A stretch of DNA of 64,000 nt from Puniceibacterium sp. IMCC21224 (GTDB lineage: Bacteria > Pseudomonadota > Alphaproteobacteria > Rhodobacterales > Rhodobacteraceae): the NCBI RefSeq assembly GCF_001038505.1, contig NZ_LDPY01000001.1, positions 1,426,001 to 1,490,000 of the forward strand, given 5' to 3'. Under the pieces are notes generated by a model. It saw nothing but the letters and a program-made list of their open reading frames with translations. It did no database searches and had not been told where the DNA came from. Numbering within the stretch: the first letter of the stretch is position 1; each line of letters starts with the position of its first letter. Positions 10,155 through 46,920 of this stretch are shown here, in pieces. A program made the position numbers and the translations under genes.

Positions 10155-10631
10155 TTATTCGAGGATCACGAGCGGCGCACCGTATTCGACGGGGGCACCA
10201 TCCTCGACCAGAATGCGTTTGACCACGCCCGCACGTGGCGCGGGAATATGGTTCATGGTCTTCATTGCCTCGACGATCAACAGCGTGTCGCCTTCTGACA
10301 CCGGCTGACCGACATGGATAAAGGCAGGCGAGCCTGGTTCACCCTGCATGTAGACGGTGCCGACCATCGGTGAGGTCACAGCGCCCGGATGGGCCGCGGG
10401 ATCCTCGGCTGCGGGGGCCGTTGCCGCAGCCGCGGGAGCCGCAGCAACGGCCAGTGGCGCGGCGGCCACGGGGGCCGGTGCAATCTGCGTCTGACGGCTG
10501 ACACGGACGCTGAGACTGTCGTCGTCGCCATATTCACGTTTGACCTGCAATTCGGTCAGGTCGTTTTTGCGCAGCAATTCGGCCAGTGCCTGGATAAAGG
10601 CCACATCTGCGTCGTGTTTCTTTTCGGTCAT
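10155..10631 (-). CDS. accB: Acetyl-CoA carboxylase biotin carboxyl carrier protein
   Basis: Carries biotin between the AccC and AccAD active sites. The 158-residue protein has a helical N-terminal part (residues 1-45), an Ala/Pro-rich flexible linker (about 50-80) and a C-terminal biotinyl domain. The biotinylated lysine is Lys124 in VEAMKTMN. Forms the usual accB-accC operon. A BioY biotin transporter gene is 27 kb away in this window. Confidence 0.96.
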
Positions 10632-37067: not shown

Positions 37068-37175
37068 TGCATGGTTGCGCTACCACTGTGGCCTGTGGGG
37101 CGGGATGGCGCTTGCGGTGCTGAGACGCTTGGGGCAGAACGGTGCGCAGTGAATTTTCAACAGGGAGGCAGGCTG

Positions 37176-37781
37176 ATGAACCTGGCACTGAACCGAAACG
37201 TCCTCGTCGATATGTTTGGCGCGACGACTGGCACCGGGCTGAGGATCAAGCAGGCGGCGCTGATCGTAGCAGGGATCGTTCTGCTGGCTGTTGCCGCCAA
37301 GATCAAGGTGCCGGTGCCTGGATCGCCAGTGATGATCAGCATGGGAACCTTTGCGGTTCTGACCGTTGGCGCGGCGTATGGCCCACGTCTGGGGCTTGCC
37401 ACCATGCTGGGCTGGATGATCGTCGGCCTGATGGGCTATGATGTGTTCCAAAGCTCGACCGCCGATCTGAATGGCATTGAGTACATGATGGGCGGCACCG
37501 GCGGGTATCTTGTCGGCTATGTGCTGGCGACGCTGGCGCTGGGTGTGCTGGCGCGGGCAGGCTGGGATCGCACAGCGCCGAAAATGGCTGGCGCGATGCT
37601 GCTGGGCAACGTGCTGATCTACGTGCCGGGCCTGATCTGGCTGGGCATGCTGTATGGCTGGGACAAGCCGATCCTGGCCTGGGGTCTGACCCCGTTCCTG
37701 CTGGGGGATGCGATCAAGCTGGCGCTGGCTGCGCTGATCCTGCCGGTGATTTGGAAGGCAGTGGGCCGCGCCCGCGGCTAA
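37176..37781 (+). CDS. bioY: Biotin transporter BioY (S component)
   Basis: A 201-residue membrane protein with about six helices, the substrate-binding part of the ECF-type biotin importer. Family signatures are AAKIKVPVPGSPVMISMGTF, YGPRLGLATML, and GGTGGYLVGYVLA. The start at 37176 has GGGAGGC upstream. No bioM or bioN genes are adjacent, so it may work alone or with a shared energising module. A strong terminator follows. Confidence 0.95.
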   Translation: MNLALNRNVLVDMFGATTGTGLRIKQAALIVAGIVLLAVAAKIKVPVPGSPVMISMGTFAVLTVGAAYGPRLGLATMLGWMIVGLMGYDVFQSSTADLNGIEYMMGGTGGYLVGYVLATLALGVLARAGWDRTAPKMAGAMLLGNVLIYVPGLIWLGMLYGWDKPILAWGLTPFLLGDAIKLALAALILPVIWKAVGRARG

Positions 37782-37896: not shown

Positions 37897-39108
37897 TCAG
37901 ACCAGTTCAGTTTCCACCCGTGCGGTGCGTTCCAGCGTACGATGAACCGGGCATTTATCGGCAATCTCCAGCAGGCGCTGCCGCTGAGCATTGTCCAATG
38001 CCCCCTCAAGGGTGATGCGGCGCCGGAACAGGTCTATCTTGGCCTCGGTCACGCAGTCGGCATCCTGAGCGTGGACCTTGTCGTGACTGATGTCGACGCG
38101 CACATGATCCAGCGGCCAACCCTTGCGGCGGGCATACATGCGGATCGTCATCGAGGTACAGGCCCCCAGCCCGGCAGCGACGAGGCCATAGGGCGACATG
38201 CCTCGGTTGGTGCCACCATAGGCCATCGGTTCGTCCGCCAAGGTATGGTGATACGGTCCGGATTGCACATCCTGAAGAAAGCCGGCCGGGTCGGCTTCGG
38301 AAACCCGCACGATGCCTTCGGGCGCGCCGATCGGCGGGGCTGGCGGGGTGAGCTCAAGGTACCGACCGGCCCAGGTGGCAATGACATCGGCGGCGTATTC
38401 CGCATCGTTGGGATCGCTGATCAGATGATCCGTGTCATCAAGGGTCACAAAGCTTTTGGGATGTTTGGCGGCGTCAAAGATCTCGGCCGCGTTGGCAATG
38501 CCCACTATTGCGTCGCGCGGCGCGTGCAGAACCAGCAGCGCCTTTTTGAGATTGGCGAGGATGGGAGCGAGATTTGCGGCCTCTACATCGCGCACGAAGC
38601 TGTCGGTGATGGTGAAGGGCCGCCCGCCAAGGTCTACCGTTGCCTTGCCGTGTTCGCGGATCGTGTCGAGCGCGCTGCCAAAGTTATGTGTCACATGCGC
38701 CGGATCGAATGGTGCGCCGATGGTGACGACGGCGCGGGCTGAGGCAATGTCGGGGGCGGCGCGCAGCACAGCCGCTCCGCCCAGTGAATGGCCGATCAGC
38801 AGCTTGGGGGCAATGCCGCGGTCTTGCAGCGCCTGCGACGCAGCCAGCAAATCCGCAACATTCGAACTGAAGGCGGTGTTGGCAAATTCACCTTGCGAAT
38901 GGCCAAGGCCGGTGAAGTCGAACCGCAGCACCGCAATGCCCATCGCGGCAAGCCGGGCCGAGATCCGGCGCGCGGCGGGAATATCTTTGGAACAGGTGAA
39001 GCAATGTGCAAACATCGCCGTAGCAAGATGCGGCCCGTCAGGCAGGTCGAGCCGGGCGGACAATATGTCGCCGGAATGGCCCGGAAAGGTGAGACGCTCG
39101 GTTGGCAT
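37897..39108 (-). CDS. Bifunctional alpha/beta hydrolase - OsmC family protein
   Basis: A 403-residue fusion. Residues 1 to about 245 are an alpha/beta hydrolase with nucleophile elbow GHSLGGAA (Ser), the region around HAPRDAIV for the acid and DDTDHLI for the His. Residues about 265-403 form an OsmC/Ohr-like domain with the peroxidatic cysteine in GACTSMTIRMYA and a second cysteine in ADKCPVHRTLE. Such fusions are known, often annotated as bifunctional hydrolase/OsmC. Probable role: handling of lipid or organic hydroperoxides. It converges on bioY. Confidence 0.88.
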   Translation of the reverse strand: MPTERLTFPGHSGDILSARLDLPDGPHLATAMFAHCFTCSKDIPAARRISARLAAMGIAVLRFDFTGLGHSQGEFANTAFSSNVADLLAASQALQDRGIAPKLLIGHSLGGAAVLRAAPDIASARAVVTIGAPFDPAHVTHNFGSALDTIREHGKATVDLGGRPFTITDSFVRDVEAANLAPILANLKKALLVLHAPRDAIVGIANAAEIFDAAKHPKSFVTLDDTDHLISDPNDAEYAADVIATWAGRYLELTPPAPPIGAPEGIVRVSEADPAGFLQDVQSGPYHHTLADEPMAYGGTNRGMSPYGLVAAGLGACTSMTIRMYARRKGWPLDHVRVDISHDKVHAQDADCVTEAKIDLFRRRITLEGALDNAQRQRLLEIADKCPVHRTLERTARVETELV

Positions 39109-39390: not shown

Positions 39391-39891
39391 CTACGGTTGG
39401 CTGTGCGGCAGGGTGTCCCGGTCGAAATAGAGGGGGGTAGGCAGGGTATACTCCTCGGTATCGCGCTGGTCGTCGCCCTGTCCCATCAGCACCGCAACGT
39501 TGCAGGTGCCGTGGGGGCTAAGCAATCCGTGATGCCAGACGCCGCGCTTGTAGATAATTCCGGTGCCGGGCGGTAGCAGAAATGCCCTGAGTTTGCCGGT
39601 GTCGGGTGTCCCGTCTGCCTTGGACGGGCAAGCCGCCATAAGCAGGACAGCTGCGGACAGCGGCAAAAAACTTTGCGGGCTGAAGGGATGACGCTCGATC
39701 TGGGCGAAGGTGATCTTCTGCGGGGCAGCGTTCAGGCTGTTGATCCACAGCCGGGGACGGACCTGCGGTGCGATATCCTCGAACGCCATGTCGAGATAGT
39801 GTCGCTCGGGTTGACCGGTATGGCGCACGAGGGTGCCAAAGGGCGCAAACCCGGATTCGGTGATCCATGTCGGAAGGGGCGTGGTGTTCAT
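39391..39891 (-). CDS. allA: Ureidoglycolate lyase
   Basis: Converts (S)-ureidoglycolate to glyoxylate and urea, the last step of the allantoin pathway. The 166-residue protein has the AllA cupin-like signature: MNTTPLPTWITESGFAPFG at the start, ERHPFSPQSFLPL in the middle, and the strand FLLPPGTGIIYKRGVWHHGL. It is the last gene of the minus-strand locus, 72 bases downstream of the SDR-PuuE fusion, so the two probably act in one ureide-degrading route. Confidence 0.9.
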   Translation of the reverse strand: MNTTPLPTWITESGFAPFGTLVRHTGQPERHYLDMAFEDIAPQVRPRLWINSLNAAPQKITFAQIERHPFSPQSFLPLSAAVLLMAACPSKADGTPDTGKLRAFLLPPGTGIIYKRGVWHHGLLSPHGTCNVAVLMGQGDDQRDTEEYTLPTPLYFDRDTLPHSQP

Positions 39892-39963: not shown

Positions 39964-41865
39964 TTAATCCGGTTTCGGCGGGTGTTCCTGCATCCAGTGG
40001 CGGGCGATGTCGACGCGTCGGCAGATCCACACTTTTTCCCGGGACTGAATGTGGCGCAGGAATCGTTGCAGCGCCAAGGCGCGTCCGGGGTGGCCCATCA
40101 GTCGACAGTGCAGGCCGATATTCATCATACGTGGCTGCGTTTCGCCCTCTTCATAAAGTAAATCAAAGCTGTCGCGCAGAAATTCAAAGAACTGCCCTGC
40201 GGTTGCCGTGTTGCCACGCGCGAATTTTCCGTCGTTTAGAGTCAGGCTGTAGGGGATCACCAGATGATCACGTTCTCCAACCTGCGTCCAATATGGCAGT
40301 TCATCGGCATAACTGTCCGAATCGTATAGAAAACCACCATGATCGGCGATCAGCTGACGCGTCCGCAGCGACGGTGCATATCGACAGTACCAGCCCGCCG
40401 GAGGTTCGCCGCACAGGGTGCCGATGACGTCAAAGGCCCGCGCTATGGCGCGTTGCTCGGTTGCGGCGTCCAGCATTTGATGCCGCACCCAGCGGTCACC
40501 ATGGGCGCAGACGTCCCAGCCATTGGCGCGGATCGCCTCGGCCACTTGGGGATTCCGCTCAAGCGCCTGAGCACACCCGAAAACGGTTGCCGGAACGCCA
40601 GCCTGTTGGAGCAGGCGAAACAGCCGCCAGACGCCGACCCGGCTGCCATATTCAAACATGGTTTCAGCGCCAAGATCGCGACCGGTGAATGCACCACCGC
40701 CGCCTTCGGTCAGTCCGCCTTCGGAGAGGGCATCGCCATCGCCAAAGCTTTCTTCGGCACCTTCTTCGTAGTTCACCACGATATTGACTGCAATCCGTGC
40801 GCCACCGGGCCAGCGCGGATCTGGCGGGTTTGGACCATAGCCGACGAAATCGCGGGTGGGATGGTGGATCGCCGGTGTCCGGATGGGTGTCGGCACCGGG
40901 TCGTTTGTGCATGACTGCAGCCATTGGATGTAGTCGCGACAGGCCATATCGGGCGTGCGAAACAGAAATCCAAAGTCGCGTTCGAACCTTGTGGCGATCA
41001 GCGGCTGTCGCGCCTGTGACGGATCGTCGTGCAACGTCAGCGTACTGTCACTGCCGTCTGGCTTGCCGATCCCGGCCTGCCATGTGGGGAAGGCGACGGC
41101 CAAATGCCCGGCCAGCAGCGCAGGGTTCCAGGGCGCGCCGATCCCAAGGTTATAAAGCTCAGCCTCCAGCTTTGGCGCAGTGGCAAGATGCAAGAGCGCC
41201 TCGGCCACGTCGCGGCTGCTGGTCCAGTCGCGCTGCAGGCCCGCAGGCAGCACGGTCGGTTTCCCCGTCATCGCCTGTTGCGCCATCTGGAACGGCAGGC
41301 TCATCATGTCGCGGGTCGTGGTTTCCCGTTCATGGGGGCCGAACAGCGCCGTGATACGGGCGCAGACGCAAGACGAGCCATAGCTTTTGGCCGTTTCCGC
41401 GACCAGTCGTTCGCTCGCCAGCTTGGTATAGCCATAGACCGAGACGGGGCGGGGTGGGGTGTCTTCGGTGATGGGCGTCCCGTCATAGAGTGCGGCACCG
41501 TAGACCGCAGTCGAGCTGGGATAGACAAAGCGCGCCACACCGACTTTTCGGGCCTCGTCCAGCAGAACTGCTGTCGAGACGGCGTTGACGTCGAACGCGG
41601 TATCGGCACCGGTCATTCGGCTCGTCGGCGCCAATGTCACTGCGGCTGCGTGAATGATGCCCTGAATGTCGTGACGTTGCAGGATGGCGGCCATGGCCGC
41701 ACGGTCACGCACATCCGCGATTTCGATGGTCAGGCCGGGTCTGGTCGAAAACTCTGGCGGGAGAGGCCGGTCGTTCACTGCGACGCAGGGGATCGCATGC
41801 GCAAGCAGCGCCTCGACTATGTTCAGCCCGAGAAAGCCTCCGGCACCGGTGAGCAGAATTGTCAT
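39964..41865 (-). CDS. Fusion of NAD-dependent epimerase/dehydratase and PuuE-type allantoinase
   Basis: A 633-residue two-domain protein. Residues 1 to about 320 are an extended short-chain dehydrogenase with nucleotide loop GAGGFLG (7-13), YPSSTAVYG and catalytic Tyr144 and Lys148 in YGYTK. Residues about 335-633 match the cofactor-independent polysaccharide-deacetylase-like allantoinase PuuE: DFVGYGPNPPDPRWPGGARI, VNYEEGAEES, FEYGSRVGVWRL, GGFLYDSDSYADELPYW and GLHCRLMGHPGRA. PuuE opens allantoin to allantoate. Known PuuE fusions are with UraD, not with an epimerase. The frame is continuous through a Pro-rich linker. It lies 3 bases after the TRAP permease and before allA. Confidence 0.85.
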   Translation of the reverse strand: MTILLTGAGGFLGLNIVEALLAHAIPCVAVNDRPLPPEFSTRPGLTIEIADVRDRAAMAAILQRHDIQGIIHAAAVTLAPTSRMTGADTAFDVNAVSTAVLLDEARKVGVARFVYPSSTAVYGAALYDGTPITEDTPPRPVSVYGYTKLASERLVAETAKSYGSSCVCARITALFGPHERETTTRDMMSLPFQMAQQAMTGKPTVLPAGLQRDWTSSRDVAEALLHLATAPKLEAELYNLGIGAPWNPALLAGHLAVAFPTWQAGIGKPDGSDSTLTLHDDPSQARQPLIATRFERDFGFLFRTPDMACRDYIQWLQSCTNDPVPTPIRTPAIHHPTRDFVGYGPNPPDPRWPGGARIAVNIVVNYEEGAEESFGDGDALSEGGLTEGGGGAFTGRDLGAETMFEYGSRVGVWRLFRLLQQAGVPATVFGCAQALERNPQVAEAIRANGWDVCAHGDRWVRHQMLDAATEQRAIARAFDVIGTLCGEPPAGWYCRYAPSLRTRQLIADHGGFLYDSDSYADELPYWTQVGERDHLVIPYSLTLNDGKFARGNTATAGQFFEFLRDSFDLLYEEGETQPRMMNIGLHCRLMGHPGRALALQRFLRHIQSREKVWICRRVDIARHWMQEHPPKPD

Positions 41866-41868
41866 GGC

Positions 41869-43164
41869 TCAGTTACTCATGTTTCGGGGCAACCAAAGCA
41901 CCAGCTCGGGCACGTAGACGATCACGGCAATAAAGGCGAGAAAGGCAACTACAAACGGCGCGATTCCGATGAATACGTCGTTGATGTTGGAATCCTTTGG
42001 CCGAAGGTTCTGGATAACGTACAGATTCAGCCCGACCGGCGGCGTGATCAGTGACAATTCCATCAGGATGGTCAGAAACACGCCAAACCACAAGGGATCG
42101 AACCCGGCGGCAATCACGATTGGGACAACAATACCGACGGTGGTCACCATCATGGCGACGGCCTCAAGAAAACAGCCAAGGATCACGTAGAACAGCACCA
42201 GCAGCCAGATCAGCGCATAGGGTCCCAGCCCGGCCTGGGTGATCGCGCGCGATGCGTCCTGTGGCAGCCCGAGCAATGAAATAATGAAGTTCAGGCAAAA
42301 GGCCGATACGATGATCAGCATGATCATCGACGTGGTGCGAAACGCGGCGGCAAACGCCTTGTGCAGCATCGCGACCGACAGTTTGCCGTTGCATGCGGCC
42401 AGCATCAGCGCCGCTACGATGCCCAGGGCCGCCGCCTCGGTCGGGGTGGCCAGACCGCCATAGATGCTGCCCATGACGACCAGAAACACAAGGAAAATCG
42501 GCGCGACCTGCCAGAGCATGCGCAGCTTTTGCGCCAGCGGGACACGTTCGGTTGCGATGGTGGGCGGTGCGATAAACACCGAAACGATGACAATGGTCAG
42601 TGACATCATTCCCGCCAGAAGCAGACCGGGAATAATCGCCGCGATGAACAGTTTGCTGACGGACAGTTCGGCCAGCGTGCCATAGACGATCATCAGGATA
42701 CTTGGTGGGATCAACACGCCCAGCGTCCCCCCCGAGGCAAGCGATCCATAGATCAGACGCCGGTTGTAGCCGCGCGCCTCAAGCTCGGGGATGGCGATGG
42801 TGCCGATGGTGGCAGCCGTCGCAACACTGGACCCCGAGGTGGCGGCAAACACCGTGCTCGCATAGATATTGGTATGCAACAGCCCACCCGGCAGCCGGTT
42901 CATCCAGACCGAAAGGGCCGAATACAGCTTGTCCGCGACTCCACCGCGGATCAGGATTTCACCCAGCATCACAAACAGCGGGATCGCGACCAGAGTGAAC
43001 GAGTTCATCTTGTCCCAGGCGATCGAGCCGAGCGACGCTGACAGCAATCCGTTGCTCAGGATCAGATCCGCACCAAAGGCGAGCAGGATAAGCGCCGTCG
43101 CCACATGAAGCCCAAGCATCAGAAGGGCGAGAAGCCCGCCAACAAACATCAGCGCGACAGTCAT
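41869..43164 (-). CDS. TRAP transporter large permease (DctM)
   Basis: A 431-residue membrane protein with about twelve helices, the ion-coupled translocation subunit of a TRAP importer. Family patterns include LGSIAWDKMNSFTLVAIPLF, GSSVATAATIGTIAIPELE, GGTLGVLIPPSILMIVYG and LITPPVGLNLYVI. It overlaps the small permease stop by one base and is followed by the SDR-PuuE gene after three bases, so substrate uptake and that enzyme are cotranscribed. Confidence 0.94.
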   Translation of the reverse strand: MTVALMFVGGLLALLMLGLHVATALILLAFGADLILSNGLLSASLGSIAWDKMNSFTLVAIPLFVMLGEILIRGGVADKLYSALSVWMNRLPGGLLHTNIYASTVFAATSGSSVATAATIGTIAIPELEARGYNRRLIYGSLASGGTLGVLIPPSILMIVYGTLAELSVSKLFIAAIIPGLLLAGMMSLTIVIVSVFIAPPTIATERVPLAQKLRMLWQVAPIFLVFLVVMGSIYGGLATPTEAAALGIVAALMLAACNGKLSVAMLHKAFAAAFRTTSMIMLIIVSAFCLNFIISLLGLPQDASRAITQAGLGPYALIWLLVLFYVILGCFLEAVAMMVTTVGIVVPIVIAAGFDPLWFGVFLTILMELSLITPPVGLNLYVIQNLRPKDSNINDVFIGIAPFVVAFLAFIAVIVYVPELVLWLPRNMSN

Positions 43165-43748
43165 TATTCGATCCCCTGAATGCGCGTGATCTGGCTGTCC
43201 TCGCCGGAACGCGCCTCGCCCAGAAGATCGCTGGTGGCGTCTTTGTCCCCCAGCAGAATGGTTTGTAGCAGATGTAGCAGCCGCAGCACGATTGCCAGAA
43301 AGAACAGGCAGAACCCTCCGGCCCAGATTGCCTGCGGGTAGTAGATCGGGGTGCGCAGCGGCGTGTTTGAAAAGGCACCGAACAGGTAGGATTCGTCCGT
43401 CAGCCTGATCGCTCCCAGCGCCAGCATCCCGACCACGATGCCAAGGGCAAGGATCGCGATCACCGCAAACACCCGGCCCAGCCTTTTCGGCAGTTTGCGC
43501 ACCACCACGTCAATCTGGATATGCGCATGTTCGTAAAAGCAATAGGCCAGCCCCAGCGACGCGGTGGTCGCAAGGGTGTAGCCGCCGTATTCATCGATTC
43601 CTTGCAGGGATTCACTGAACACCTTTCGCAGGAAAACTTCGACACAGATGCCAATCGACAACAATATCACGAGCCAGCCACCGACGATGCAGGCAGCATG
43701 GGATATGGCCCTGAGGGCCGCTTCTGAGGACGGGATGATGCGTTTCAT
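43164..43748 (-). CDS. TRAP transporter small permease (DctQ)
   Basis: A 194-residue, four-helix membrane subunit joining the binding protein and large permease of the TRAP system. The family segment EYGGYTLATTASLGLAYCFYEHAHIQIDVV is present. I start at the ATG at 43748; a TTG at 43796 in the same frame would overlap the binding-protein stop. It ends in the same bases where DctM begins. Confidence 0.88.
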   Translation of the reverse strand: MKRIIPSSEAALRAISHAACIVGGWLVILLSIGICVEVFLRKVFSESLQGIDEYGGYTLATTASLGLAYCFYEHAHIQIDVVVRKLPKRLGRVFAVIAILALGIVVGMLALGAIRLTDESYLFGAFSNTPLRTPIYYPQAIWAGGFCLFFLAIVLRLLHLLQTILLGDKDATSDLLGEARSGEDSQITRIQGIE

Positions 43749-43782
43749 GTCATTTGCGCCGAAATTTGTTTGCCTGTGTCGA

Positions 43783-44829
43783 TTACTGAGCCGCAATCAC
43801 TTTGCCGATGGTTTCGTCAAAGCGGTCGGCGCAGTCGGGGAAGATCGGGGTACAGCTTTCTTTCCACTTGGGGATGATCGTGGTGTTGACGATCTCTGCC
43901 AGGATGTCCTTGTCGCTCGCAGAGACTTCGGTGAACGTCATGCTGCCCGGTTCGCCGCCAAGGGTACATTCGCCCTGACCCGTCGCGCAGACCACACCCT
44001 GATTGTGGACGTCGGGGGCCATGGCCCACAGCTTGTCCTCGGCTTCCTTCATCTTGGCGCTGATCATGTCCTGATCTTCGGCCGAGAGGGTGTCCCAAAA
44101 GGTCTTGTTCGCGACCTGAACAACCTGGCTGTAGCTGCCCAATGGGAAATTATAGAGATGGTTGGCGACCTCGTGCCATTTGGTACTGTAGCCATATGTG
44201 CTGCCCGTGGAGCCACAGTTGACAAGGCCGCGCTGCAACGCCTGATAGACCTCGCCGCCGGTCAGGTTGACTGCGGTCGCGCCCAGTTGATCCAGCGTGT
44301 CAGCCGCGGGTGCGCCGGACACCCGGACCTTGCGACCCTTGAGGTCGGTGATGCTGTTGACTGGTTCATTGCACCAGACGATTTGCGGATTGAACGGCCA
44401 GTGGGTCAGCAGAACACCGTCAAACCGCTCTAGTCGCTCGGCCATGGTCGGACGGTAAACATCCGAGATTTTGCGAAGCGTTTCATAGTCATACGCCAGC
44501 CCGGGCAGATCAACGGCGACCAGAGACGGTTCGTCGCCGCTGACATAGGCCGGGCTGATGGTCATGATGTCAAAGGCACCGCGCTTGAGAAACCGCAACG
44601 CCTGATCCCCCTTCAGGCCGGCCTCGTTCAGGGTCAGGTACTGAATTTCGATCCGCCCGTCGGATTCGGCCTCGATGGCTTCCCACATCGGGCGGTCCAC
44701 GTCGTCGATCTGCGGCTGGTTGCCCCAGAACCCAAGGACCTTGATTGTCACGTCCGCAGCCTGCGCCATCGAAGCAGACGAGAGGGCGCCAACAAACGCC
44801 GCGCTAAGGATTTTTGATGCTGTGTTCAC
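43783..44829 (-). CDS. TRAP transporter periplasmic binding protein (DctP)
   Basis: A 348-residue secreted protein with a signal peptide (ending SMAQA) and a DctP fold. The conserved arginine that usually binds a substrate carboxylate is probably in KGRKVRVSGAP. Unusual for the family, it has several cysteines (WCNEPV, GLVNCG, VVCATGQGECTLG, ESCTPIFPDC) that may form disulfides. It is the first gene of the minus-strand operon. Linked allantoinase and AllA make a ureide or related acid a plausible ligand, but the ligand cannot be read from sequence. Confidence 0.92.
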   Translation of the reverse strand: MNTASKILSAAFVGALSSASMAQAADVTIKVLGFWGNQPQIDDVDRPMWEAIEAESDGRIEIQYLTLNEAGLKGDQALRFLKRGAFDIMTISPAYVSGDEPSLVAVDLPGLAYDYETLRKISDVYRPTMAERLERFDGVLLTHWPFNPQIVWCNEPVNSITDLKGRKVRVSGAPAADTLDQLGATAVNLTGGEVYQALQRGLVNCGSTGSTYGYSTKWHEVANHLYNFPLGSYSQVVQVANKTFWDTLSAEDQDMISAKMKEAEDKLWAMAPDVHNQGVVCATGQGECTLGGEPGSMTFTEVSASDKDILAEIVNTTIIPKWKESCTPIFPDCADRFDETIGKVIAAQ

Positions 44830-45185: not shown

Positions 45186-46076
45186 ATGAACGTCCGCTAT
45201 CTTGAGATATTCCGGGCCGTGATGCAGACCGGTTCAACCCTGGCGGCAGCTGAGCTGCTCAGCATCTCGCAACCGGCGGTATCGAACCAGCTGCGTCTGC
45301 TGGAATCTCAGATCGGTTTTTCACTGTTTGATCGCCGGTCCAGACGACTTGTCCCAACAGCCGAAGCGCACCTTTTCTATGAGCGTTCAAGAAGCTTCTT
45401 TGAGGTATTACAATCACTTGATGTCTATTCAGAGGAGTTGAGGCGGGGTGAACGGGGGCGGCTGAACTTTGTGTGCAGTCCGAGCCTGGCCAACGGTCGC
45501 ATTCCCGAGGCCATTCGCCGGTTTCATCGTGACCGGTCGGATGTAACTCTCAGGCTCGATATGCCGTCGAACGAGCGGATCATCGCGATGATCCTGGCCG
45601 AGATGACCGAATTCGGACTGACGATTACCCCCCTCGAACACCCGTCACTCGAATCCTCTCTGCTCGCTAAGTTACCGATATATTGTGTTTTGCCTAAAAA
45701 TCATGCGCTGTCGAAACGTGCGATCATCAAGCCAGCCGAACTGGAGGGCGAGAATCTGATCGCTTACCCCAAACATTCCGAGGTTGGTCGGATCATCGAT
45801 TCAATACTGCCCGTGTCCGGGCGCGCTATCGAACCCTTCGCCGAAGTGCGCTATATTTCCATGGCCTTGCGCCTGGCCGAAGCGACATTGGGGATCGCGC
45901 TGGTGGATGGTGATACAGCCCTTGCGGCGAATCCCGATCTGGTGGCGGTCCGACCGGTGGAAACCGACCAGTTCCTGCCGCTCGTCGCGACACATCTGAA
46001 AGGGCAGAAGCTTTCGCTGATCGCCGAAAGTTTCATTGCAGATTATATCAAAGTCACAACCGCCCAGCCTGGTTGA
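45186..46076 (+). CDS. LysR-family transcriptional regulator
   Basis: A 296-residue regulator with the N-terminal winged helix (MNVRYLEIFRAVMQTGSTLAAAELLSISQPAVSNQLRLLE) and a C-terminal two-lobed effector domain from about residue 90. It is divergent from the TRAP-SDR/PuuE-allA operon and codirectional with the following dehydrogenase gene, so it most likely controls both in response to the imported compound or a breakdown product. The effector is unknown. Confidence 0.9.
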   Translation: MNVRYLEIFRAVMQTGSTLAAAELLSISQPAVSNQLRLLESQIGFSLFDRRSRRLVPTAEAHLFYERSRSFFEVLQSLDVYSEELRRGERGRLNFVCSPSLANGRIPEAIRRFHRDRSDVTLRLDMPSNERIIAMILAEMTEFGLTITPLEHPSLESSLLAKLPIYCVLPKNHALSKRAIIKPAELEGENLIAYPKHSEVGRIIDSILPVSGRAIEPFAEVRYISMALRLAEATLGIALVDGDTALAANPDLVAVRPVETDQFLPLVATHLKGQKLSLIAESFIADYIKVTTAQPG

Positions 46077-46173
46077 ATATTTGTATCCTTTAGGCCGGTG
46101 CCTCTTGTCATTCCCGGGACGGCTGCAAAGGATCAGCGTCGGCAGACAGGCTGGACAAAAAAGGGATCAGAAT

Positions 46174-46920
46174 ATGACGACCGACAAACCACTCAACGAC
46201 CGTGTGGCCATCATCACCGGGGCAGGCGGCGACATTGGTCGCGCGATTGCCATGAGTTTTGTTGAGGCTGGCGCGCGGGTCTGTCTGATCGACCTTGCAC
46301 CGGTGTCCATCGCGGATTTTCCCGAAGATCGCGCCCTGACGCTGGCCTGTGACATCACCGATCCGACCGCCGTCGATGAGATGGTCGCCACGGCCGCGCG
46401 GCATTTCGGGCGGATCGACATTCTGGTCAACAACGCCGCGGCCGAAGCCCGCATCGGCAAAATCTGCGACCTTCCGGTCGAAGCCTGGACCCAAACGCTG
46501 AGTGTGAATCTGACGGGGGCCTATCTGCTGTGTCGCGCCGGGATACCGCATTTGCGCCGCAGCAAAGGGGTGATTCTGAATATCGCATCGCAATTGGGCC
46601 ATGTCACCGCGCTGGGGCATGCCGCCTATTCCGCCAGTAAGGCGGGGTTGATGTCGCTTACCCGGACCCTTGCTCTGGATCATGCAGATGAGGGCATTCG
46701 CGCAGTGAGCCTGTCGCCCGGTGCGGTGATGACCAGTCGGCTGATCCGCCGCGCCGGGAGTGAAGAAGACGCTCTGGCGCTGCACGCGCCGCGCCATCCA
46801 CTGGGCCGCATCGGCACGCCGGACGAGGTCGCAGACGCGGCGCTGTTTCTGGTTTCTGACGCCGCGACTTTTATCACCGGCAGCGATCTTCTTGTCGACG
46901 GCGGCTATACGCTGAAGTGA
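46174..46920 (+). CDS. Short-chain dehydrogenase/reductase
   Basis: A 248-residue classical SDR with cofactor loop GAGGDIG, the NNAAA motif, catalytic Ser, Tyr and Lys in IASQLGHV and YSASKAG, and the C-terminal GSDLLVDGGYTLK. The Asp in LIDLAPV at the end of strand 2 favours NAD. The ATG at 46174 follows AAAAAGGGATCAG; the frame extends upstream without family similarity. Located after the LysR gene, it probably works in the same pathway as the TRAP locus, oxidising or reducing a hydroxy acid. Confidence 0.88.
   Translation: MTTDKPLNDRVAIITGAGGDIGRAIAMSFVEAGARVCLIDLAPVSIADFPEDRALTLACDITDPTAVDEMVATAARHFGRIDILVNNAAAEARIGKICDLPVEAWTQTLSVNLTGAYLLCRAGIPHLRRSKGVILNIASQLGHVTALGHAAYSASKAGLMSLTRTLALDHADEGIRAVSLSPGAVMTSRLIRRAGSEEDALALHAPRHPLGRIGTPDEVADAALFLVSDAATFITGSDLLVDGGYTLK

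Follow-up and report, generated by a model that had tools for sequence, protein, structure and literature searches.

A fused extended SDR and PuuE-like protein of Puniceibacterium as a candidate enzyme of cyclic ureide catabolism

Results and Discussion

One protein with two enzyme folds

Why should a single protein join an extended short-chain dehydrogenase/reductase (SDR) to a relative of the allantoinase PuuE? The question is raised by a gene in a 64,000-nucleotide stretch of Puniceibacterium sp. IMCC21224 (contig NZ_LDPY01000001.1, positions 1,426,001 to 1,490,000), hereafter the window, in which all positions are counted from its first letter. The gene lies on the minus strand at 39964-41865 and forms one continuous frame of 633 residues. 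A match to the Epimerase family (PF01370, E 7.8e-46) spans residues 3-241 and one to the PuuE model TIGR03212 spans residues 337-629, with a Pro-rich linker (residues 316-336) between the two halves.

A sequence-only reading of this frame had described a full extended SDR joined through such a linker to a full PuuE-like domain, with no epimerase fusion of PuuE known before, and had made the idea depend on an N-terminal SDR fold. The profile matches bear out this architecture, and searches with the halves singly and together, in proteins, genomes and plasmids, found no second SDR-PuuE fusion. The N-terminal half carries the Gly-rich Rossmann motif, the Ser and the YxxxK of the extended SDR superfamily. 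We predicted the structures of the two halves separately; the SDR half adopts an extended-SDR fold in its model, with a mean predicted local distance difference test score (pLDDT) of 93.4. The PuuE half reaches a mean of 77.7, with a badly predicted loop (residues 44-83 of the modelled piece, below 50). Profile scans gave no match to the UraD model in the fusion, which sets it apart from PuuE-UraD fusions with their C-terminal UraD. Fusion of PuuE to a pathway neighbor, UraD, is already known.

By analogy with a fungal pathway, we propose, with a rough probability of 0.4, that the fusion may be a bifunctional catabolic enzyme for an imported hydantoin- or imide-like cyclic ureide, in a pathway of oxidation, ring opening, and release of urea.

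A proposed route for a cyclic ureide

In this scheme, a tripartite ATP-independent periplasmic (TRAP) system would import a hydantoin- or imide-like cyclic ureide bearing a carboxylate. The extended SDR half, with nicotinamide adenine dinucleotide (NAD), would oxidize an alcohol or carbinolamide, located on the ring or next to it, to give a more electrophilic cyclic imide or oxo-ureide, and the metal-free PuuE-type half would hydrolyze a ring amide to give a ureido acid. The AllA-like neighbor would take urea, or the ureide nitrogen, off the ureido acid to leave an oxo-acid, and a classical SDR might reduce or oxidize a product. We infer the order of the steps, the cofactor, and the class of substrate.

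A precedent for such a pair of reactions is nicotinate breakdown in Aspergillus nidulans. In the part of PMC9304392 that concerns these enzymes, the SDR HxnW oxidizes a hydroxy-piperidinone (a ring carbinol) to an imide, and HxnM, which is related to PuuE-like cyclic imidases, opens that product. Based on this precedent and on the recurrence of the genes in several taxa, described below, it is plausible that both halves of the fusion act on one substrate. A larger claim, which we regard as doubtful, is that the PuuE-like and AllA-like paralogues and both SDRs make up an undescribed catabolic route for a natural compound of the hydantoin- or imide-like kind, running beside allantoin breakdown but distinct from it, in which the fusion would hand an unstable oxidized ring from one site to the other.

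The neighboring transporter and hydantoin-type genes narrow the candidate substrates to a short list. The closest plasmid matches of the window's TRAP large permease, DctM, are two Sulfitobacter records (76%). On the plasmid of Sulfitobacter sp. W027 (L161), the annotated order is AllA, LysR, N-carbamoyl-D-amino-acid hydrolase, two racemases, hydantoinase (dihydropyrimidinase), DctP, DctQ, DctM, and flavin reductase, with identities to the window of 66% for DctP, 51% for DctQ, 75% for DctM, and 43% for LysR. The W027 hydantoinase passes its curated model (TIGR02033, 559 vs 393); the carbamoylase passed no curated model, and the W027 AllA matches the window's AllA-like protein weakly (36% over 90 residues). 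Among the nearest solved relatives of the window's solute-binding protein is 2pfy, presumably a pyroglutamate-type binder and a lead only.

Similar genes occur in the congener G001, which has the same operon. There, the SDR, PuuE, and AllA genes are adjoined by a gene of the Asp/Glu/hydantoin racemase family, a carbon-nitrogen (CN) hydrolase, and a dihydroorotase-type cyclic amidohydrolase, which passes the dihydroorotase model PRK09060 (639 vs 482) and not the hydantoinase model. The flavin reductase of W027 is 58% identical to that of G001, and its carbamoylase is 50% identical to the G001 CN-hydrolase. The Puniceibacterium genome itself holds a separate hydantoinase-type cluster at C1:300-310 kb (L166 8412-17718), with LysR, a racemase, a classical SDR, a dihydrodipicolinate synthase (DHDPS)-family gene, a flavin reductase, and parts of an amino-acid-type ATP-binding cassette transporter; its hydantoinase-like amidohydrolase and carbamoylase-like protein are 58% and 63% identical to those of W027.

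Several observations weigh against a bifunctional enzyme for such a ureide. In most genomes, neither half has the other as a required neighbor. Compared with solved structures, the SDR-half model matches the fold of nucleoside diphosphate (NDP)-sugar epimerases along its whole length. Finally, a dihydropyrimidinase-cluster gene was mapped in just 6 of the 62 loci in the phylogenetic group of the window's PuuE-like half; this SDR was mapped in 10 of them, AllA in 15, and the classical SDR in 19, all of which are undercounts since many loci are truncated where a contig ends and labeling by homology misses genes (e.g. the annotated SDR and AllA of L032). The cluster labels were assigned from sequence features, and Pfam checks of one representative each for ten clusters all agreed.

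The fusion binds one such gene pair into one protein and in this way indicates which oxidation and which ring opening to consider together.

How often the fusion and the gene pair recur

A search of 5.8 billion protein sequences gave 56 matches among 8000 scored candidates, and both halves were covered only by the window's own protein. With the SDR half as sole query against candidates of about 350-1100 residues, there were 63 matches, and a deacetylase domain was also listed for the window's own protein alone. Among the matches listed, best first, from sets of 60 and 385 genomes, a match to residues 1-633 was found in the source genome only. On plasmids, 22 of the 1724 records with a match carry both halves in one place, always (22/22) as two pieces; 17 of these records annotate separate genes there and 5 annotate none. 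They come down to a small number of independent cases, in Variovorax, Paracoccus, Rhizobium/Neorhizobium, Klebsiella, and Shinella. The SDR and PuuE genes overlap by 1 nt in Paracoccus and Rhizobium. Among the matches listed from the openly licensed PubMed Central literature, we found no description of the fusion or of the gene set.

The SDR subfamily is present in 43 of the 385 genomes of the class sample, with a PuuE match at most 200 nt away in three of them, one of which (G121) has a PuuE of the purine side. A constant association of this SDR subfamily with an adjoining PuuE was considered and rejected, since there are SDR loci with no PuuE neighbor. In the stretches read, K. oxytoca, G396, and a second Thioclava locus have the SDR with a hydantoinase and no PuuE, and Salipiger has PuuE and AllA but lacks the SDR.

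A set comprising AllA-like, PuuE-like, transporter, extended SDR, classical SDR, and GntR or LysR genes recurs in Comamonadaceae, Bosea, Neorhizobium, Paroceanicella, and Thioclava. Its composition and order vary: Variovorax has the order SDR-AllA-PuuE, transporter genes lie between SDR and PuuE in some clusters, a thiamine-diphosphate enzyme is present in the Rhizobium and Paracoccus clusters, and RidA occupies the position of AllA in Klebsiella. AllA-like enzymes and RidA both act on labile C-N intermediates. Among the first plasmid loci read, 5 of 7 hold an annotated dihydropyrimidinase gene. Tardiphaga has, within a few kb of an AllA/PuuE/SDR cluster, two more PuuE-like genes (L082 2597-5089), which are divergent and have another gene between them.

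These patterns bear on whether the fusion has any catalytic meaning, as it might be the neutral joining of two co-expressed genes whose products use different substrates of one pathway, without channelling. Such a history would suit a pair that is unfused everywhere else it was found and whose gene order is variable, but its repeated occurrence in taxa far apart suggests that the steps are linked. This recurrence is not decisive, and we consider neutral joining unlikely, though worth keeping in view.

PuuE-like domains have other partners as well. Two metagenome proteins, both continuous by eye, join one to a coenzyme A transferase (P0009, 725 residues) and to a DUF29 domain (P0002, 457 residues); a further candidate, P0008, appears by eye to be a frameshift product, with a long low-complexity middle.

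What the SDR half resembles

The sequence-only reading had suggested, as one option, a sugar-like step for the SDR half. On this the evidence is divided: the neighbors indicate hydantoin or ureide compounds, and the model has the fold of an NDP-sugar epimerase. By both sequence and fold, the nearest solved SDRs are NDP-sugar epimerases and dehydratases, the best being a uridine diphosphate N-acetylglucosamine (UDP-GlcNAc) C4-epimerase. Small-substrate extended SDRs of the uronate dehydrogenase type were absent from the best 50 fold matches listed, which does not rule them out. Every curated cut-off of the named extended-SDR models was missed (GalE, heptose epimerase, thymidine diphosphate (dTDP)-glucose dehydratase, D-erythronate dehydrogenase, and others); the best score was 81.5 vs 262.3 for GalE. 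Catabolism of the D-erythronate type was considered for this half and rejected, as the D-erythronate dehydrogenase model scored 58.6 vs 325 bits.

A protein of sugar metabolism would explain the solved relatives: the SDR half would take a sugar or sugar nucleotide as its substrate, and the NodB half would cleave an N-acyl group off a compound resembling an amino sugar, as in carbohydrate esterase family 4. The DHDPS-family or class II aldolase genes held by some PuuE-like loci would also suit it. However, the scores fall far short of the cut-offs for GalE, dTDP-glucose dehydratase, and D-erythronate dehydrogenase, the neighbors are of the ureide or hydantoin type, and the second metal-binding His of deacetylases is replaced by Trp, as in PuuE. 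We judge an amino-sugar substrate to be clearly unlikely.

The PuuE-like half and allantoin

The PuuE half is 47% identical to the PuuE of its own genome. It scores 381.4 bits against TIGR03212, below the equivalog-domain cut-off of 424.6, whereas the host's PuuE-UraD protein (G000 C1:1310640, L041) passes both this model (531.7) and the UraD model (207.1). Controls also pass TIGR03212 (L044, 502.7; Photobacterium, 547.6), and counterparts of the window half fall below it (G001 372.6, Variovorax 394.5, Comamonadaceae 372.3, Bosea 369.6, and Paracoccus 270.6). The SDR-linked PuuE proteins of Shinella (L031, 454.0) and Klebsiella (L034, 456.8) lie above the cut-off. Thus, some SDR-linked members are nearer to true PuuE, and two PuuE types have joined the gene set.

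The PuuE loop GWYTGR reads GWYCRYAPS in the window half. This motif alone is not decisive because YCRY also appears in six rows of the PuuE-side group of our tree, three of them beside purine genes. In the motif HGDRW, by alignment only, Trp takes the position of His90 of HpPgdA, as it does in PuuE, which points to a NodB-type domain that lacks the customary metal site; the part of PMC3084791 that treats this residue describes it as the second metal-binding His of deacetylases.

We built a quick tree of 98 rows with Shimodaira-Hasegawa-like approximate likelihood-ratio test (SH-aLRT) support and no bootstrap. All 19 purine-labeled rows fall within one 27-row group (SH-aLRT 97), and the window half falls in a 65-row group without purine-labeled rows (fork 87; inner 15-row fork 98). 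Among the 15 rows nearest the window (98), nine are labeled as SDR-linked, although five of these were picked knowing of the SDR; among the 10 nearest rows that come from the locus set chosen by likeness, the fraction is 4/10. That set comprised the best 80 of 590 relatives by likeness to the query, in 79 loci, of which 76 are in the tree; in the other three (L070, L103, and L111), the PuuE gene was missed or cut by gene calling. In the labels, the extended SDR overrode purine, and the locus of congener G003 (L036) was set to extended SDR by hand, its SDR being on another contig.

Genes for UraH, UraD, PuuD, or allantoicase occur in 0 of the 62 mapped loci of the window's group (window included) versus 15 of the 21 in the PuuE group, and none of the four was found among the window genes scanned. 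These counts use 83 of 90 mapped loci and exclude six that fall outside both groups (L120, L029, L030, L093, L100, and L109), of which L029 and L030 are SDR-linked. The AllA-like neighbor meets Pfam PF04115 (76.2 vs 23) but misses the NCBIfam cut-off for AllA ureidoglycolate lyase (73.1 vs 160), and nine purine AllA rows form a separate clade (support 99/99) that does not include it.

The locus might instead encode a second allantoin pathway, in which the PuuE half would serve as an isozyme of allantoinase that acts on allantoin taken up from outside, AllA would finish ureidoglycolate, and the SDR would be an unrelated passenger. Its identity to the host PuuE, the adjoining AllA-family gene, public records that annotate such neighbors as allantoinase PuuE and ureidoglycolate lyase, and the Shinella and Klebsiella scores are in keeping with this idea; the sub-threshold score, the altered loop, the position of the AllA-like gene, and the want of an allantoate-processing gene among the window neighbors scanned make it improbable. 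The sequence-only reading had offered, as one of its options, a PuuE part acting on something other than allantoin, and score cut-off, motif, phylogeny, and neighborhood favor that option: such an activity is well supported as the probable role of this half. Some public-record genes named allantoinase PuuE and ureidoglycolate lyase appear to be part of another pathway.

Origin of the fusion

G001 encodes the SDR and PuuE parts in separate genes, with 68% (SDR) and 80% (PuuE) identity to the window halves, and the SDR stop and PuuE start overlap within 11 bases (ATGCAACGTGA). The G001 PuuE sequence used in comparisons starts at base 10361, two codons past its ATG. When the fusion and single-domain proteins were aligned together, the SDR rows came out misaligned, the identity of the G001 SDR to that of the window falling from 68% to 24%, and this alignment was dropped. 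In G003, the SDR and PuuE genes are on different contigs; a stretch upstream of its PuuE gene (L036 4288-4487, minus strand) resembled by eye a remnant of the SDR C-terminus, and tblastn gave no confirmation. For G002 and G004, of the same genus, the best hit is to a PuuE copy whose frame has 478 codons, with 49% and 47% identity.

In the window, several substitutions have replaced both the ancestral ATG and the ancestral TGA, and a longer linker is present. Because the start and stop of the G001 overlap are lost, the fusion looks like a recent merger of two adjacent genes, and a single indel (insertion or deletion) error explains the data poorly. A crude estimate, with synonymous sites near saturation, suggests constraint on both halves. 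That an assembly or sequencing frameshift hides two separate overlapping proteins is highly improbable: a fusion confined to one genome among those searched, a gene overlap in G001 that one indel could join, and two in-frame codons that persist inside the fusion, ATG at position 307 and GTG at position 324 of the codon count, would all agree with it, but the substitutions and longer linker argue against it, and no AGGAG-like stretch lies ahead of either internal start (by eye).

Genes around the fusion

The fusion gene is the fourth of five tightly spaced minus-strand genes (TRAP solute-binding protein, small permease, large permease, fusion, and AllA-like), which we take to be an operon. Upstream of the five lie, divergently, a LysR gene, which probably regulates the operon, and a classical SDR gene, whose true start is probably later than the TTG of its open reading frame (ORF). 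G001 has a counterpart of this classical SDR next to its cluster, and G003 has one next to its PuuE gene. Features are collected in Table 1.

Table 1. Features of the fusion gene and its neighbors in the window
Feature	Position	Strand	Remarks
AllA-like gene (ureidoglycolate lyase family)	39391..39891	-	Downstream of fusion; outside purine AllA clade
PuuE-like (NodB/polysaccharide-deacetylase) half, residues 337-633 and stop	39964..40857	-	GWYCRYAPS for GWYTGR; HGDRW, Trp for second metal His
Pro-rich linker, residues 316-336	40858..40920	-	Position of the 11-nt stop/start overlap in congener G001
Extended-SDR half, residues 1-315	40921..41865	-	Gly-rich GAGGFLG; Ser118, Tyr144, Lys148 catalytic by alignment
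TRAP large permease DctM	41869..43164	-	75-76% identity to DctM of two Sulfitobacter plasmid operons
TRAP small permease DctQ	43164..43796	-	
TRAP solute-binding protein DctP	43783..44829	-	66% identity to Sulfitobacter W027 DctP
Divergent LysR-type regulator	45186..46076	+	
Classical SDR, adh_short_C2 from residue 66	46036..46920	+	ORF begins TTG

Elsewhere in the window, one 403-residue frame joins an alpha/beta-hydrolase to an OsmC domain (37897-39108, minus strand), and a BioY-family (biotin uptake) gene adjoins a DUF6314 gene (37071-37781, plus strand).

Relation to known systems

The NDP-sugar epimerase and dehydratase SDRs (PDB 6wjb and 5u4q, GalE) differ from the window SDR, which is 25-26% identical to the best solved match, lies below all listed named cut-offs, and sits among ureide and hydantoin genes. 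The hyu-type hydantoin operon of W027 shares with the window a closely related TRAP transporter, a LysR gene, and an AllA-family gene, but it has an annotated hydantoinase, carbamoylase, and racemases, and no SDR-PuuE pair within the stretch read. PuuE allantoinase (TIGR03212; PDB 3cl6 and 1z7a) is alike in its full-length NodB-type domain and in the Trp at the second metal-His position; it differs in that the window half is below the cut-off, has CRYAPS for the TGR-S motif, lacks purine neighbors, and is partnered by an SDR instead of UraD. The host's PuuE-UraD protein likewise fuses a PuuE-type domain to a pathway neighbor, although there the partner is UraD, at the C-terminus. HxnW and HxnM, as presented in the relevant part of PMC9304392, differ in being two unfused proteins, from a fungus, with a piperidinone as substrate and with HxnW a classical SDR; by analogy only, they offer the same succession that we propose for the fusion, in which an SDR first carries out an oxidation and a cyclic imidase related to PuuE then opens the ring.
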